A stretch of DNA of 64,000 bases, taken from assembly GCA_903924205.1 (NCBI GenBank), contig CAIYAP010000004.1, positions 62,001 to 126,000 on the forward strand. Direction: 5' to 3'. Below, one piece after another: positions 40,789 through 47,894 of this stretch. Under the pieces are notes generated by a model, which worked only from the letters and a program-made list of their open reading frames with translations, made no database searches and was not told the DNA's origin. The first letter of the stretch is position 1. Every line of letters starts with the position of its first letter. Made by a program: the position numbers and the translations under genes. This DNA is from an uncultured Actinomycetes bacterium. GTDB lineage: Bacteria; Actinomycetota; Acidimicrobiia; Acidimicrobiales; RAAP-2.

Positions 40789-41553
40789 CTAGGAGCCTCC
40801 ACCGCCTCCGTGGGGGAATTCGGACCACCCGCTGGCGTGAGCCCACGTCTCCGCACGGTCGAGAATGTCAATGATGAGCGAGTTCTTCGCGTAGGTGTAG
40901 CCAAATCGATCATCTGACCATTGCTCAGCCGCGGACAACTTCATTGCCTCGTAGCGCTCAGCGTCCTCGTCGTGGGTCCGTAGATAGTCCCGAAAAAGCA
41001 AGTGCTCACGTTCAAAGGCGCTCCCCGCGGCGCAGACGTGCACGTGGAGAGTGCGCGGTTCCGGCACGGGCGCGCAAAAGAAGCGGTGTTCGTCATCTCG
41101 AGTGAACAAGACCACGCCGAGTTCTTCGATGCGCGACCGATACGAATCCTCATCAGCCACATTGGGTACGGACACCATCACGTCCACGATGGGCTTCGCC
41201 GCCATTCCCGGAACTGACGTCGATCCCACGTGCTCCACTCGGGCGTTGGGTAGCGCGGCTCGTAATCGATCACTGAGGGATCGAAATGTGTCGACCCACT
41301 CAGCACGCGGAGGGACGACGACGATGTTCGCGTCAAAGCGAGGCGGGGCAACTCGTTCGAACCCTGGCCACAAGGTTGACTCAGATGCATCAGCGAGTAA
41401 CTGGCGACGCTCAATGGTGAGGCCGGCAACCTGGACTCCCGACCGTTCAGCCACCATCTCGTAGAGCTCAATAAGTCCGACCGAGCGCCCATGCTCGTGT
41501 CGCCGAGCGACCCAACAATCCATGACCTCTCGATCCACGCTGCTGAGTTCCAT
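40789..41553 (-). CDS. GrpB (UPF0157)-like protein with N-terminal extension
   Basis: Protein of 254 residues. The C-terminal 170 residues match GrpB/UPF0157, a nucleotidyltransferase-fold group, with VEHVGSTSVPGMAAKPIVDVMV and the HVHVCAAGS segment. The N-terminal 65 residues (ELSSVDREVMDCWVARRHEHGRS) are helical and have no clear match. ATG 41553 is chosen because TACCGT lies 6 nt upstream; the longer open frame to 42021 is antisense to the secreted SGNH gene. Function of the family is not established. Confidence 0.82.
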   Translation of the reverse strand: MELSSVDREVMDCWVARRHEHGRSVGLIELYEMVAERSGVQVAGLTIERRQLLADASESTLWPGFERVAPPRFDANIVVVPPRAEWVDTFRSLSDRLRAALPNARVEHVGSTSVPGMAAKPIVDVMVSVPNVADEDSYRSRIEELGVVLFTRDDEHRFFCAPVPEPRTLHVHVCAAGSAFEREHLLFRDYLRTHDEDAERYEAMKLSAAEQWSDDRFGYTYAKNSLIIDILDRAETWAHASGWSEFPHGGGGGS

Positions 41554-41559
41554 GACTTG

Positions 41560-41565
41560 ACGGTA
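41560..41565 (-). promoter_or_regulatory. Predicted leaderless -10 element of the GrpB-like gene
   Basis: TACCGT, 6 nt before the ATG at 41553. Confidence 0.5.
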
Positions 41566-41729
41566 ACGCCTCGACGAGGGCGTCGTGGTCGTCCATGACG
41601 GACCGCTCGATGCCGGACGGGTGATCACGGCGTTGACGTCCGTAACGGCAGCATCGAGAGCGTGAGAGGGACCGGGTGACGTACCGCTGCGACACGAAAA
41701 GTTCACCTGCAGGGCGTCTCGCCGTGCAC

Positions 41730-41742: not shown

Positions 41743-42777
41743 ATGTTTCGACGTATCAGTCTCATCGCCCTGAGCCTCTCCGCCGCTGTCATTCCCCTGA
41801 GTTCGTCTCTCGTCTCGGCCGAGACGAAAATCGACCCCTGCGCGACGTACAACCCGCACGCCTGTTTCGCGGCAAATGTGACCTCGAGTGAGATCGCCGC
41901 CGCCATCAGCGCCGCTCACGCTCTCAAGACCTTGCCATCGACCACTCCGACGTTGAGCTACCTCAGCAGCGTCAAGACGGGTACTCGCTCCTATTTCATG
42001 CCCGCAGGACGCTGTGCGCAAGATGCCCTCCAGACCGATGGCAGCCCTCCGTCAATTGCCGATTGCACTCTGGTAAACCCCAGGAGCGCCCACACCGTCG
42101 TATTGACGGGTGATTCCCGTGCGGTCATGTGGACGACCGACCTCGTGACGCTCGCCCGTCAGTGGCAGTGGCGTCTCGTGGTCCTCGCGAAGCCCGGTTG
42201 CGTCGCGATGTCGGGTTCTATTACCCACTTGAACAATCCCGGAGGTTCGGCATGGGTCGCCTGCGACAATTTCCACACGGCGGTGATGAGCGACCTGCGG
42301 CAACTCAATCCAGACCTCGTCATCATTGCGTCCAACCCCGTTCAGTCCCTGGCGCCCGGCCAGTCGGGCACTATCTATAGCAACTCCCTGTCGTACTTCA
42401 CCTCCATGAAGTCGTCCGCACCGCGTGCCACTTTCATCCAACTCAACAACATGCCCAATGTGCAGTGGCCAGGCTCGCTGAACCCCGTGGGTTGCCTCTC
42501 CATGCACAAGACGGCCATCAACCTGTGCGACAAGGCCCCCGTGAGTCAAGGAGTGGCCAACGCGTCCATTGCCTCGGCGGACGCCGCGGCGTCGGTGTCG
42601 TCCATCAATATCGAGCCATGGGTGTGCAACAGCACCTGTCCGCCGGTCATTGCCGGGATGATCCCCTACGACCGCGACGGCATGCACCTCAACAATGTCT
42701 ATTCCGGATGGCTCGTGGGCGTTCTCTGGAGCGCCATCGCGGCAGTGCCACATTCCGGCATCCCCACCCCCACCTGA
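41743..42777 (+). CDS. Secreted stand-alone SGNH hydrolase/acyltransferase domain protein
   Basis: Protein of 344 residues with a signal peptide (1-26, SLVSA|E). It shows the SGNH fold used by the C-terminal domain of OafA-type acyltransferases: TGDSRAVMW with Ser125, WxxC-type aromatic contacts, and the catalytic pair DGMH (Asp312, His315). Several Cys pairs fit extracellular disulfides. It may complete O-acetyl transfer started by a membrane acyltransferase without its own SGNH domain, such as the one at 14.8 kb, or act as an esterase. TACCGT stands 7 nt before ATG 41743. Confidence 0.8.
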   Translation: MFRRISLIALSLSAAVIPLSSSLVSAETKIDPCATYNPHACFAANVTSSEIAAAISAAHALKTLPSTTPTLSYLSSVKTGTRSYFMPAGRCAQDALQTDGSPPSIADCTLVNPRSAHTVVLTGDSRAVMWTTDLVTLARQWQWRLVVLAKPGCVAMSGSITHLNNPGGSAWVACDNFHTAVMSDLRQLNPDLVIIASNPVQSLAPGQSGTIYSNSLSYFTSMKSSAPRATFIQLNNMPNVQWPGSLNPVGCLSMHKTAINLCDKAPVSQGVANASIASADAAASVSSINIEPWVCNSTCPPVIAGMIPYDRDGMHLNNVYSGWLVGVLWSAIAAVPHSGIPTPT

Positions 42778-42844
42778 TTGGCTCTCCCACGACGGCGAGA
42801 CCACGATTGCTACGGTGCTCGCAGACACGACGGGAGGCGCACTC

Positions 42845-43990
42845 ATGGGTGCAGGAATTGAGTGGGTCGTCAGAAGTTGCCGGTTGCTGCAACGCATTGG
42901 CGACGAATTTGAGACTTCACAGCCCTTTGCGGGACTACGGATCGGCACCGCTATTCACATGGAACCAAAGACGGTGGCCCTCATCCTGACGTTGCAACGT
43001 GGAGGCGCCGACGTGGTCGCCACGGGCAACCTCGGGTCAACGCAGCTTGAGGCTGCCGAGTATCTCCGGCAGCGTGGAGTCACGGTGGTGGGACAGCCGA
43101 CGACGGATCTACGCGAACACGACGGCTACTTACGCGAGCTGCTGGCAACTCAGCCAGATGTTCTATTAGACAACGGCGGCGACTTGTTCGTCCGATACCT
43201 CGAGAATCCGTATGAGCACTTGCGTGGCGGCACCGAGGAGACGACGTCGGGTCGCAATCGACTCCTTCCCCTCCGTGAGAAACTCAATCGGCCCGTTCTC
43301 GTTATCAACGACAGCCCCATCAAGCAATTCGCGGAGAATTATCACGCGGTGGGCCTGAGCGTTCTCGAGTCCTACTTACGCATCACCAATCGCACCCCCA
43401 ATGGTGAACGAGTCACGGTCTATGGATATGGACCGTGCGGCAAGGGCATCGCGGTGAACTTTCGAAACGCCTTCGCCAAAGTCACGGTGTGCGAGATTGA
43501 CCCCGTCAAGCGTCTCGAGGCGCATCTCGATGGATTCATGGTGGGTGACATCGATGCCGTCACTACCGACGCGGATGTCGTCATCACGTCGACGGGTGCC
43601 ACTCACGTCCTCACCACCCACCACCTCAGCCACTTCCGAGATGGGGTGATCTTGATCAACGCCGGTCACTTTCCAGACGAGATCGATGTGGCCGGCATGG
43701 CGATGTCGCCCACGGTGATCTCCTCATCGGCCACGTCTGACGGCATCACCACCTTTACGACCTCGGCAGGAAAACTCGTCCACGTGTTGGCGGGTGGTCA
43801 TATGGTGAACCTGAACGGACCTCGCCCCTTGGGCAATTCCATTGAATCGATGGATCTGGGATTCGCCCTGCAGTCCAAGTGTCTCGAAGCGGTAGCTCGG
43901 GGCTCAGTGACTGCCGCTGATGCGGTGGTGCCGGTACCTCGCTGGATTGACGAGTACGTTTCGGACGCCTACTTGGCGTCACGCGGTTAA
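42845..43990 (+). CDS. S-adenosylhomocysteinase-like protein with altered active site
   Basis: Protein of 381 residues similar throughout to S-adenosylhomocysteine hydrolase. Retained: HME (His38), EETTSG (Glu131/132), NDSPIK (Lys160), the NAD loop GYGPCGKG (194-201) and AGHFPDEID. Changed: the usual LDDGGD is LDNGGD (Asn110, replacing a substrate-binding Asp), and the Asp four residues after the catalytic Lys is Glu164. The canonical C-terminal KPDHYRY NAD-contacting tail is missing. Alignment to the known enzyme is from memory. ATG 42845 follows GGGAGG with 7-nt spacing. It may use a different substrate, or be a regulatory homologue. Confidence 0.82.
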   Translation: MGAGIEWVVRSCRLLQRIGDEFETSQPFAGLRIGTAIHMEPKTVALILTLQRGGADVVATGNLGSTQLEAAEYLRQRGVTVVGQPTTDLREHDGYLRELLATQPDVLLDNGGDLFVRYLENPYEHLRGGTEETTSGRNRLLPLREKLNRPVLVINDSPIKQFAENYHAVGLSVLESYLRITNRTPNGERVTVYGYGPCGKGIAVNFRNAFAKVTVCEIDPVKRLEAHLDGFMVGDIDAVTTDADVVITSTGATHVLTTHHLSHFRDGVILINAGHFPDEIDVAGMAMSPTVISSSATSDGITTFTTSAGKLVHVLAGGHMVNLNGPRPLGNSIESMDLGFALQSKCLEAVARGSVTAADAVVPVPRWIDEYVSDAYLASRG

Positions 43991-44519: not shown

Positions 44520-47500
44520 ATGCGTCGCTTGCGCATTTCAGCAGTTGCTAGTTCACTTATTTTTGCGGGATCATTCTTACCAATGTCCGCAGCTCACGCG
44601 CAGGTCGTTCCGGCGTGGCAAGTGGTGGGCGGCCCGTCTACTCACGTCGCCGGCAACCGAGTGATTAGTCCGGCGTCGGGAAATGCTGTCATTGACTTTC
44701 GCGTCGGACTCGCACCGCGGAACGCCTCGTCGCTCGCGGCCCTCGCGGCGTCGGTCGCGAATCCGGCATCACCGAACTACCACCACTTCTTAACGTCACG
44801 GCAGTTCCGAGAGGTCTACGCACCCACCGCTGCCACGATTCGCCAGGTCGCGGGCTATTTCCGCAGCCAGGGACTCACCGTGTCTCGAAACGTCAGCGAC
44901 GGACTCGTCCTGCACGTCTCGGGGACGTTGGACCACACCGCTCAGGCACTTCGCACTCACTTTGATGCGGTACGCAGCGCGAAGGGCGTCCTCGGCGTTG
45001 CGAATGCCACCACGGTGTACTTGCCGAGCGTTATCGCCACCAGCGTGTCGGGCATTACGGGCCTCGACACCGCCGCTCGTGCCTTCTCCTACCTGTCACG
45101 GCCTCACACGGCCATCAGTGCGCCCACTTCGTGCCCCACGGCGGACACTGCCGAAGCAACCCGCCTCACCCACGGCCTCGCGCCCACGCCGGCGGATCAA
45201 GCCGCGGTATACGGCCTGAACGCGCAGTACGCCGCTGGCTACTCCGGCGCCGGTCGCAGTATCGGCATGCTGGAGTTCGCCGGCTACAACGAGTCGGACG
45301 TCAACTTCTATCTGTCCTGCTACGGACTTCACACCACCGTGACTTCCGTCAACATTGACGGTGGCCCCGACGCCAGCACCTTGACCAATGGTGAGTCCAT
45401 GGAGAGCGATCTCGACATCGAAGAGTCAGCCGTCTTGGCTCCCGGAGCGAACATTATTAATTACCAGTCCGCCAACACGCTGAACGCCTTTATTGATGTC
45501 TTTGCCAAGGTGGCGCAGGATGATGCAGTGTCCTCGCTGTCCGTGTCATGGGGCATCTGTGAGAATTCTGCCAACTCGGCGTCGTATCAGCCAGTACTGC
45601 AGCAGCTCGCCGCCGAAGGCATTCCCGTCCTCGTCGCGGCCGGTGACTCCGGCTCCGAGCAGTGTGCGTACAACGCCGCGCCCGGTGGCCACGCGGATTA
45701 CTCCTTGACGGTGGATGACCCGGCGAACTCACCCTGGGTGACCGCCATCGGTGGTCTCCAGCTGAACTCCTTCACCCCGGGTGACGCCACCGTATGGAAC
45801 GGCATTTGCGGAGGCGGCGTTCCTTGTGGTGGTGGTGGCGGCATGTCGTCGCTGTACGAGCGCCCCGTGTGGCAGACCGGTGACGGCGTCGACACCTCGC
45901 TAAGCGGTCGTCAGCTCCCCGACATTTCCGTCATGGGCGACCCACACACCGGTTTCATGGTCTATTACAACGGCCGGTTCGGATCGGTCGGGGGTACCTC
46001 CATTGGCGCACCCATCGTCGCGGCCATGGTGACGGTGGCCGCCGAAGCGTGCGGCGTGCAGGGAGTGGGCTTCATGAATCCGCGCCTGTACCAGATGGGC
46101 CAAGACGGCACCGGAATCATTGACATCACCACCGGATCAAACGACATGTATGGCACCGGTGGCTACAGCGCCACCACGGGTTACGACATGGCGAGTGGGC
46201 TCGGCACCCCCGACGCCTCCACCTTCCTTCCCGCGCTGTGTGGCGCCACTGGTTCCAGTTCGGCGACCCCGAATACCGCCGGTGAAACAAGCAATTGGTC
46301 GGTAACGGTGCCGACGGGGACTCACGCCATTACGGCGGGCACTCACCTGAGTGTCAAGTTGCTCAACAGCTCGTCGGCCATTTTGCCGACGAGTGCGGGC
46401 GCCTACACCATTAACGGTGCCACCGCTCTCGCCAGCGCGTCAAACGGCATCATCACTCTCACGGTGCCCGCCGACATCGCGGCAAACAGCACCATCGTTC
46501 TCGGCATCACGGGCGCCCAGAACTCCGCCACGGCTGGGGCGGTGATTGTGGAAGTGACAGACCCCACCGGCTACCTCCAAGTGGGTCAGATCCTGACCGG
46601 AGCAGCGCACATCACGTCCGTCGTCAATGATGCGCCGAGCAAGATTTCCCTAGGTGCCGAGTCCACGATCACGTTGACGGCATTTGATGGGACTACCCCG
46701 GTTCGAGGACAGAGCATCTTGGCGTCGACAACGGCCTCAAACCTGGTGGTCATCGACGCATCCAAGTCCACTGATGCCGCAGGACACGCCGTTCTGCACG
46801 TCGCGGGATCGGGCCTCGGACGAGGCAGCATCACCGTCATCGTCGGCCCCACCACCGTGAGTGTCTCGCTCAATGTCACGAACGGTGCCGGTTCGTCGGT
46901 ATCCAAGTTCGTCACCGCGAAGGGCGACAGCGTGCTCACGACCGGACGACCTGCCTCATCATCGAACTGTGGCGTCGTGGCTCTCACCAAGAAAGGCCAC
47001 CTGGCCAGCACATTCAAGGCTGTTGCAACAGGGTTCAATGCCATTTCGAAGGTTGCTTCGAGCCCGTCGGTGATTGATGGTCCGAATGGTGCGTGTATCG
47101 CCCTCTACGTGACCTCAACGGGTTCGCTTGACATGGCACGTCACCTCGCCGGTTCGAGCAGCATCAGCTCCACGACGGTGGTGTCATCCGGCGTCGCCAA
47201 GGTGGCACCGGGAGTTTCCATGACCGGCAGTTCTCTCGTGGTGGACTGGGTGTCCACCACGGGCCACCTCAACCTCTCGACCGTCGCCAGCACTCCGTAC
47301 TCCGTGACCACCTCTGACCTCACCTCGGCAACCTCCATTGCCAATCTGAGCATTACCGGACGCAACCTCCAGGGAAGCGTGGCGGTATCGGGATCAGCGA
47401 CGGTCATCTCGATCATCAGCGGTAAGACGGCCTGGGCTGTGACTTCCACTGGTTCAGACTGGACGGCGACTGACTTGTCGACCAATGCGGGTTACACCAA

Positions 47501-47894
47501 CAGTGGCAAGGCTGCGCTGACGGGCAATGCCGCAGTGGTCAGCACGAATTCCGCGGGCGGAATTCACGACTTCATCATCGCGACTCACGCGACGAATGGC
47601 CACATTGTGATTTTCAATCCGTCGCCCGATCAAGCGAACTACTGGTTCGTCAATGACGTCACCAGCAATCTCAGCACGCTGACGACCACGGCAGATATTG
47701 CGGTGTTCGACAATGGAGTTCCGACGGCCGCCGTCATCACCAAGTCAGGCGTCTCGCTTCTGGCCCTTCCTTCCCCCTTCCCCGCACCGTGGATTGCCAT
47801 TCCGGTGAAGGTAAGTGGAGCGAAGGCGACTTTCGCGAGCGGCACCCAAGCGGGTGCGTTGACCTCAGCGGGTGCGGTCTTACTGCACCTCTAA
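44520..47894 (+). CDS. Secreted sedolisin (S53) serine-carboxyl peptidase with long C-terminal extension
   Basis: Exported peptidase of 1124 residues. Residues 1-27 are a signal peptide; about 30-195 a Pro-kumamolisin activation domain (SSLAALAASVANPASPNYHHFL). The catalytic domain spans about 215-575: Glu295 and Asp299 in ESDLD, oxyanion Asp376 in AAGDSGS, Ser494 in GGTSIGAP, and calcium ligands in GIIDITTG and GYDMASGLGTP. Family members work best at acid pH. The remaining 550 residues are Ser/Thr/Gly-rich, with one Ig-like section (about 640-770) and further beta-rich repeats, perhaps for wall or polymer binding. A G-rich ribosome site precedes ATG 44520. Confidence 0.92.
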   Translation: MRRLRISAVASSLIFAGSFLPMSAAHAQVVPAWQVVGGPSTHVAGNRVISPASGNAVIDFRVGLAPRNASSLAALAASVANPASPNYHHFLTSRQFREVYAPTAATIRQVAGYFRSQGLTVSRNVSDGLVLHVSGTLDHTAQALRTHFDAVRSAKGVLGVANATTVYLPSVIATSVSGITGLDTAARAFSYLSRPHTAISAPTSCPTADTAEATRLTHGLAPTPADQAAVYGLNAQYAAGYSGAGRSIGMLEFAGYNESDVNFYLSCYGLHTTVTSVNIDGGPDASTLTNGESMESDLDIEESAVLAPGANIINYQSANTLNAFIDVFAKVAQDDAVSSLSVSWGICENSANSASYQPVLQQLAAEGIPVLVAAGDSGSEQCAYNAAPGGHADYSLTVDDPANSPWVTAIGGLQLNSFTPGDATVWNGICGGGVPCGGGGGMSSLYERPVWQTGDGVDTSLSGRQLPDISVMGDPHTGFMVYYNGRFGSVGGTSIGAPIVAAMVTVAAEACGVQGVGFMNPRLYQMGQDGTGIIDITTGSNDMYGTGGYSATTGYDMASGLGTPDASTFLPALCGATGSSSATPNTAGETSNWSVTVPTGTHAITAGTHLSVKLLNSSSAILPTSAGAYTINGATALASASNGIITLTVPADIAANSTIVLGITGAQNSATAGAVIVEVTDPTGYLQVGQILTGAAHITSVVNDAPSKISLGAESTITLTAFDGTTPVRGQSILASTTASNLVVIDASKSTDAAGHAVLHVAGSGLGRGSITVIVGPTTVSVSLNVTNGAGSSVSKFVTAKGDSVLTTGRPASSSNCGVVALTKKGHLASTFKAVATGFNAISKVASSPSVIDGPNGACIALYVTSTGSLDMARHLAGSSSISSTTVVSSGVAKVAPGVSMTGSSLVVDWVSTTGHLNLSTVASTPYSVTTSDLTSATSIANLSITGRNLQGSVAVSGSATVISIISGKTAWAVTSTGSDWTATDLSTNAGYTNSGKAALTGNAAVVSTNSAGGIHDFIIATHATNGHIVIFNPSPDQANYWFVNDVTSNLSTLTTTADIAVFDNGVPTAAVITKSGVSLLALPSPFPAPWIAIPVKVSGAKATFASGTQAGALTSAGAVLLHL

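Follow-up and report, generated by a model that had tools for sequence, protein, structure and literature searches.

The SAHH-like gene and its active site

The window analyzed here is a stretch of 64,000 nucleotides from an uncultured bacterium of the order Acidimicrobiales (contig CAIYAP010000004.1, positions 62,001 to 126,000). Its forward strand contains a gene for a protein related to S-adenosylhomocysteinase (SAHH), preceded by a sequence resembling a ribosome-binding site and by a gene encoding a secreted SGNH-domain protein (Table 1). Upstream of the start at 42845 the frame stays open as far as an ATG at 42695, and a Met is aligned with the start at the same place in L003, the locus of a near relative whose protein is 87% identical. 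A previous sequence-only reading of this DNA had described an SAHH-like protein of 381 residues with changed catalytic residues, and this is borne out by the translation, the Pfam matches, and the alignment.

Table 1 Features at and next to the SAHH-like gene in the window.
Feature	Position	Strand	Basis
SAHH-like paralog, 381 aa (P0002)	42845..43990, stop codon included	+	ORF translation, Pfam, NCBIfam, and PDB sequence matches
GGGAGG, ribosome-binding-site-like	42832..42837	+	7 bases ahead of the ATG at 42845; read from the sequence
Codons of H38-M-E40-P-K42, the HxExK base-binding motif (His55/Thr57/Glu59 positions)	42956..42970	+	Sequence and alignment
Asn110 codon (AAC), catalytic Asp131 position	43172..43174	+	Sequence and alignment
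Glu164 codon (GAG), Asp190 position (2'-OH binder in mouse SAHH)	43334..43336	+	Sequence and alignment
Asn331 codon (AAT), His353 position, 2-residue insertion adjoining	43835..43837	+	Sequence and alignment
Secreted SGNH-domain protein, directly upstream neighbor	41743..42777	+	PF19040, E 4.3e-14

Both SAHH Pfam domains scored above their gathering cut-offs in the window protein, PF00670 (AdoHcyase_NAD) with E 8e-31 and 107.8 bits against a cut-off of 27, and PF05221 (AdoHcyase) with E 4.3e-16 and 59.3 bits against 25. The protein stayed below the cut-off of the ahcY equivalog model TIGR00936 (257.8 bits against 497.6) and passed that of the broader NCBIfam model NF004005 (293.6 against 275). 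Its nearest solved relatives by sequence are the Thermotoga maritima SAHH (5tov, the best PDB match, E 1.8e-67) and archaeal-type SAHHs. An AlphaFold model built from ten sequences had a mean pLDDT of 86.4 and a pTM of 0.73, with a low-confidence loop at residues 320-331 that is part of the changed base loop, next to Asn331. When this model was compared with the PDB using Foldseek, the best 50 matches were all SAHHs or SAHH-like proteins, the top one being 3x2f (E 1.2e-33). By fold and domains, the protein is clearly an SAHH relative.

We mapped the active-site positions with a HMMER alignment to the Pyrococcus furiosus SAHH and then converted them to mouse numbering, the second step being our own and shifting the later positions uniformly by 3. 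Glu57/Lys59, Asp128, and His298 of the P. furiosus enzyme are named in PMC10978960 (Koeppl et al.). In the alignment, Asn110 of the window protein falls on Asp128 and His275 on His298, which we took as mouse Asp131 and His301. The residues at the His55, Glu156, Thr157, Lys186, Asn191, and His301 positions are kept, as are the Rossmann-type NAD domain and both His on the 5' side, and the segment of Asn80, Thr84, and Gln85 is mostly conserved. Three positions are changed: Asp131 is Asn110, Asp190 is Glu164, and His353 is Asn331 with a two-residue insertion. The canonical residue set is thus incomplete, with His55, Glu156, Lys186, and His301 present and Asn, Glu, and Asn at 131, 190, and 353. Judged by these catalytic residues, the protein is clearly not a canonical SAHH.

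The Asn in LDNGGD, the Glu four residues past the Lys, and the retention of the catalytic His, Glu, and Lys (at the His55, His301, Glu156, and Lys186 positions) had all been pointed out in the sequence-only reading and were found as described; the change at His353 with its insertion and the base motif HxExK go beyond it. It had also listed the absence of the KPDHYRY tail among the oddities. The tail is indeed absent, and even the Thermotoga enzyme is longer by about 20 residues, but a short C-terminus is normal in archaeal-type SAHHs (PMC10978960), so that the loss of the tail is only a weak sign of altered function.

In mouse numbering, Lys186 and Thr157 bind the 3'-OH, Glu156 and Asp190 bind the 2'-OH, and His55, Asp131, and His301 bind the 5'-OH, while C4' receives a proton from Asp131 (PMC4647836). 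The oxidation machinery is thus kept in the window protein and the C4' acid/base is not. The rat SAHH mutants D130N and D189N of Takata et al. 2002 reportedly had strongly reduced rates. His353 recognizes the base through its main chain (PMC4647836), and its change alone therefore need not abolish binding. The HxExK motif has been described as characteristic of enzymes that favor S-inosylhomocysteine above S-adenosylhomocysteine (SAH), with a preference for hypoxanthine-containing substrates and with the Lys touching O6 of inosine (PMC10978960). The window protein has this fingerprint as H38-x-E40-x-K42.

A clade with a shared residue signature

We aligned 74 distinct sequences from the fetched loci, including the window protein. 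These were best matches and not a random sample, so the 44 sequences that fell outside the clade described here, mostly archaeal-type SAHHs of the window's phylum together with one ordinary SahH, are not representative of the whole family. Thirty of the 74 sequences carry the changes and group as a clade. In a maximum-likelihood tree of 73 rows, which took in no AgmF sequence, the 29 clade rows used formed one group (ultrafast bootstrap 100, SH-aLRT 99).

Position 131 is Asn in all 29 readable clade members, position 190 is Glu in all 30, and position 353 is Asn in 29 and Asp in one, while HxExK is present in 28 of 28 readable members. Lys186, Asn181, Asn191, His301, and Asn346 are kept in all 30 members, and Glu156 and Thr157 in 29 of the 29 that could be read at these positions. 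The Cys79 position is Gly (29/29 readable members) and the Cys195 position is Val (30/30). Phe189, which adjoins Glu190, is replaced by Ala, Gly, Val, Ile, or Leu, with Ala in the window protein. Outside the clade, Asp was found at both 131 and 190 in all 44 sequences, and position 353 was His in 43 and Asn in one. Four of the 44 also have HxExK, and this motif alone thus does not define the clade. Asn131, Glu190, and Asn353 together with HxExK form a small residue signature for the clade. On the tree the signature has a single origin, and finding the changes together is therefore no independent proof that they are functionally coupled.

The possibility raised earlier that the changes are alignment errors did not hold, as they recur in every readable member of the 30-member clade. 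An alignment artefact or a frameshift is ruled out by the same letters in separate genomes and by the purifying selection on the frame. Between the window gene and its counterpart in L003, dN was 0.086 and dS 1.12 by the NG86 method, and dN/dS was about 0.08, a ratio that rests on NG86 with dS above 1 and near saturation. The window frame is under purifying selection.

Diverged SAHH-like genes of other kinds were also seen. Genome G139, which is from the same order, contains two SAHH-like genes in tandem on the reverse strand (L022:188-1426 and L022:1411-2814). The product of the first has Thr at the His55 position, Ala at His301, and Asn at His353 with Asp131 and Asp190 kept, and that of the second is an intact HxExK type. 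The pair may represent another type of rebuilt SAHH and may form a heteromer. Another diverged SAHH paralog, outside the 30-member clade, is encoded in genome G031 (L039:1411-2682, reverse strand), with Lys186 changed to Arg, Asn181 to Ser, Glu156 to Asp, and His301 to Gln.

Distribution and gene neighborhoods

The clade is patchily distributed in Actinomycetota and Pseudomonadota. It was found in at least 6 of 148 genomes of the window's order, where the signature was read only in genomes with a locus, and in at least 2 of 396 genomes of the phylum sample (E <= 1e-85). At the same threshold, the phylum sample gave no match in four other listed genomes of the window's genus or in three other listed genomes of its family. 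In the order of the Rhizobiales genome G524, 9 of 297 genomes matched at E <= 1e-118, G524 included. Matches on plasmids came from Rhizobium, Ensifer, Pararhizobium, Vibrio, and Photobacterium, with the signature read in L048-L053. This scattered distribution fits horizontal transfer or repeated loss.

Whether the source genome has a normal SahH was a check proposed in the sequence-only reading. The genome (G000; 1.66 Mb, 97.5% complete) does encode an ordinary SahH, a 481-residue ORF at L001:1483-2928 with its Pfam match at G000:C2:124547-125968, which reached 629.5 bits with TIGR00936 and shares 28% identity with the window protein. The window gene is therefore an extra copy, and the idea that it is the only SahH of the genome is ruled out. 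An ordinary SahH was also present in all nine further clade-bearing genomes that were checked, in G527 as a match in two pieces of one frame, so that both genes occurred together in 10 out of 10 genomes checked. Within about 6 kb of the ordinary SahH of G000 (L104, G000:C2:118447-125968), we found a nucleoside hydrolase and a ribokinase-like match.

The position of the SGNH gene ahead of the window gene, noted from the sequence before, was confirmed, while a partnership between the two was rejected. The SGNH protein adjoins the gene in L003 as well, where it is 86% identical and most of the surrounding region is syntenic. When the 30 clade loci, some of them with short flanks, were searched by tblastn with the SGNH protein, only the window and L003 matched, leaving 28 other clade loci without it. 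As it lies beside the gene only in this near relative, the SGNH neighbor is probably not functionally informative. Other neighbors in the window are a small VOC-like protein on the opposite strand (named by eye) and, at 44520-47894 on the forward strand, a secreted protein of 1124 residues, which by eye resembles a pro-kumamolisin-type peptidase carrying a long extension at its C-terminus. No conserved partner was found around the window gene, and its neighbors point to no pathway. Comparing L003:3818-6844 with window positions 41374-41689 revealed a gene of about 2.8 kb (924 aa) in L003 that is absent from the otherwise syntenic window, the product of which starts like an adenylate-cyclase-type regulator (by eye).

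Several relatives lie among genes of nucleoside metabolism, most clearly in Vibrio nigripulchritudo. On a plasmid of this species, a nucleoside hydrolase, the clade gene, add (adenosine deaminase), and a ribokinase follow one another in a packed cluster, where adjacent genes overlap or are a few bases apart; a NupC transporter is nearby. The Naasia aerilata locus contains a BMP-type transporter, cdd, deoA (thymidine phosphorylase), UriH (a uridine-preferring nucleoside hydrolase), the clade gene, and an adenosine deaminase. In two genomes of G524's order, the clade gene is divergent from cdd and a sodium/solute symporter. In the related genomes of L090 and L091, from the same order, a gene for a LacI-type regulator (by eye) adjoins the clade member and a hydantoin/allantoin-racemase-like gene (by eye; L090:15000-15734 and L091:6997-7791) lies within about 7 kb of it. 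A Gfo/Idh/MocA oxidoreductase was located directly downstream in 4 of 26 clade loci from two phyla, namely Allokutzneria and three rhizobial plasmids, all belonging to the window protein's own subclade. Neither nucleoside-salvage genes nor this oxidoreductase were found at the window gene, and the remaining clade loci have assorted neighbors with no common theme. The neighboring genes were called with a simple ORF scorer and are rough. Most named neighbors were confirmed by family search; the Naasia cytidine deaminase, the regulators, and the racemases were named by eye, and the second cytidine deaminase with its symporter (L094) and the Gfo/Idh genes of L051 and L052 were matched by tblastn.

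We then counted nucleoside-salvage families across 26 loci of the clade (433 kb), 10 loci of canonical SahH genes (138 kb), and 10 control stretches that we chose ourselves (160 kb). L005, L006, L009, and L010 were left out of this count for their short flanks, and these four clade loci had no match to the families. Four of the 26 clade loci contained such families, as did 1 of the 10 ordinary SahH loci, and the 10 control stretches contained none. This excess was not significant (Fisher p 1.0 against the ordinary SahH loci and 0.37 against both controls pooled), and the comparison is partly circular because the reference genes were drawn from three of these four clade loci. The window protein's subclade includes none of the four. 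With no significant excess over the controls, we rejected the nucleoside-salvage context as proof of function and retain it as a lead only.

Proposed function and comparison with known enzymes

The members of the clade are probably enzymes acting on some other nucleoside. With about even confidence, we propose that the window protein is a catalytically competent enzyme of the SAHH fold that is not the methyl-cycle SAHH and would oxidize the 3'-OH of a nucleoside, the base of which is probably a 6-oxopurine, in an NAD-dependent manner. The residues for 3'-oxidation that are invariant across the clade, the ordinary SahH present in the same genomes, and the purifying selection all argue for this proposal. 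In the proposed mechanism, the protein would bind a nucleoside with a 6-oxopurine-like base and oxidize its 3'-OH with tightly bound NAD+. The step that follows would differ from the standard Asp131-assisted deprotonation at C4'. One option is that the Glu at 190, which is one carbon longer than Asp, acts as the acid/base for a different 5'-leaving group. Another is that the 3'-keto intermediate proceeds to a change of configuration or to release of the base. More weakly, the data suggest that the physiological role may be the breakdown or salvage of unusual nucleosides.

A more specific form of this proposal, which we regard as tentative, is that the clade would be a previously undescribed type of enzyme on the SAHH fold, by which a 3'-keto nucleoside would be produced with tethered NAD+ and no cut at C5'. 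The ketone would serve either for inversion at a sugar carbon or for expulsion of the base from C1', which in the latter case would make the protein an NAD-dependent nucleosidase, like the NAD-dependent glycosidases, and the Gfo/Idh/MocA oxidoreductase could be its redox partner in some lineages.

A different substrate had already been guessed in the sequence-only reading, with S-inosylhomocysteine as the example. The general guess fits the HxExK motif; hydrolysis of S-inosylhomocysteine is possible and is not the simplest reading. It belongs to an alternative that we consider doubtful, in which the protein is a second, specialized S-inosylhomocysteine hydrolase (SIHH) or SAHH that cleaves a 5'-thioether nucleoside (S-inosylhomocysteine, SAH, or a methylthio-nucleoside) with Glu190 or a His in place of Asp131. 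The motif is that of enzymes preferring S-inosylhomocysteine (PMC10978960) and both 5'-side His and most of the Asn80/Thr84/Gln85 segment are kept, but the accepted mechanism has Asp131 protonating C4' (PMC4647836), and AgmF loses all activity when the corresponding Asp is changed to Ala (PMC8599513). An adenosine deaminase lies near the gene in two relatives, whereas the canonical SahH in 10 of 10 genomes checked and the lack of a DadD-like deaminase in the source genome by PF01979 argue against a second hydrolase. DadD, an SAH deaminase, is presumably a member of PF01979, and the only two matches to this family in G000 (97.5% complete) are by eye an imidazolonepropionase and a dihydroorotase. 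With Asp131 replaced and no DadD-type deaminase among these matches, the simple S-inosylhomocysteine reading is weakened. The one adenosine-deaminase-family protein (PF00962) in G000 could in principle make S-inosylhomocysteine.

It is unlikely that the protein is a non-catalytic sensor of NAD or of a nucleoside. One catalytic Asp is lost, and non-hydrolyzing SAHH-like proteins of the AHCYL/IRBIT type exist in animals, but the sensor idea, also put forward earlier, gained no positive support: the 3'-oxidation residues are invariant across the clade, the gene is under purifying selection relative to L003, and in V. nigripulchritudo it is packed among catabolic enzymes. Quite improbable is an AgmF-like dehydratase or hydratase making or using a 4',5'-unsaturated nucleoside, since AgmF, which shows that the SAHH fold is capable of such chemistry without accepting SAH, is inactive as D129A and D188A (PMC8599513) and both Asp are changed in the likewise rebuilt clade pocket (Asn110 and Glu164), with no nucleoside-antibiotic cluster seen by eye in the gene lists around the window gene and its relatives.

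SAHH-like genes tend to be named adenosylhomocysteinase and to be counted as methyl-cycle enzymes, and this label is found on clade members in two Vibrio plasmid records. Recognizing the clade would correct such annotations with a signature that is small and testable. Should the 3'-OH oxidation that we propose be right, a conserved clade in which the oxidation half of the mechanism is retained and the C4' acid/base is lost would demonstrate that evolution has put this fold to a further use in nucleoside chemistry. If 3'-keto chemistry indeed leads elsewhere than C5', this would be a new reaction for the SAHH family. A search of titles and the starts of abstracts in part of the literature, which did not extend to the supplementary trees of the AgmF paper, found no description of the clade. 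A term search of a 2026 review (PMC13406329) gave no hit, and such enzymes are not mentioned in passages of PMC12955632.

AgmF, the angustmycin A dehydratase, is an SAHH relative like the window protein, does not accept SAH, and has bound NAD (PMC8599513). It keeps and needs two Asp (PMC8599513), equated by motif to positions 131 and 190, where the window protein has Asn110 and Glu164. The housekeeping SahH of the same genome shares the superfamily, the NAD domain, and the 3'-oxidation residues with the window paralog, which lacks the catalytic-domain insert and the C-terminal Lys/Tyr tail and differs in its pocket residues. The window protein has the fold, the three-domain layout, the short C-terminus, and the HxExK motif of the Thermotoga maritima and archaeal-type SAHHs (SIHH), as well as the residues at the Lys186, Glu156, His55, and His301 positions. 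It differs from them in having Asn for Asp131, Glu for Asp190, Ala for Phe189, and Asn for His353 with a 2-residue insertion, in its still shorter C-terminus, and in being encoded by an extra copy beside a canonical SahH.
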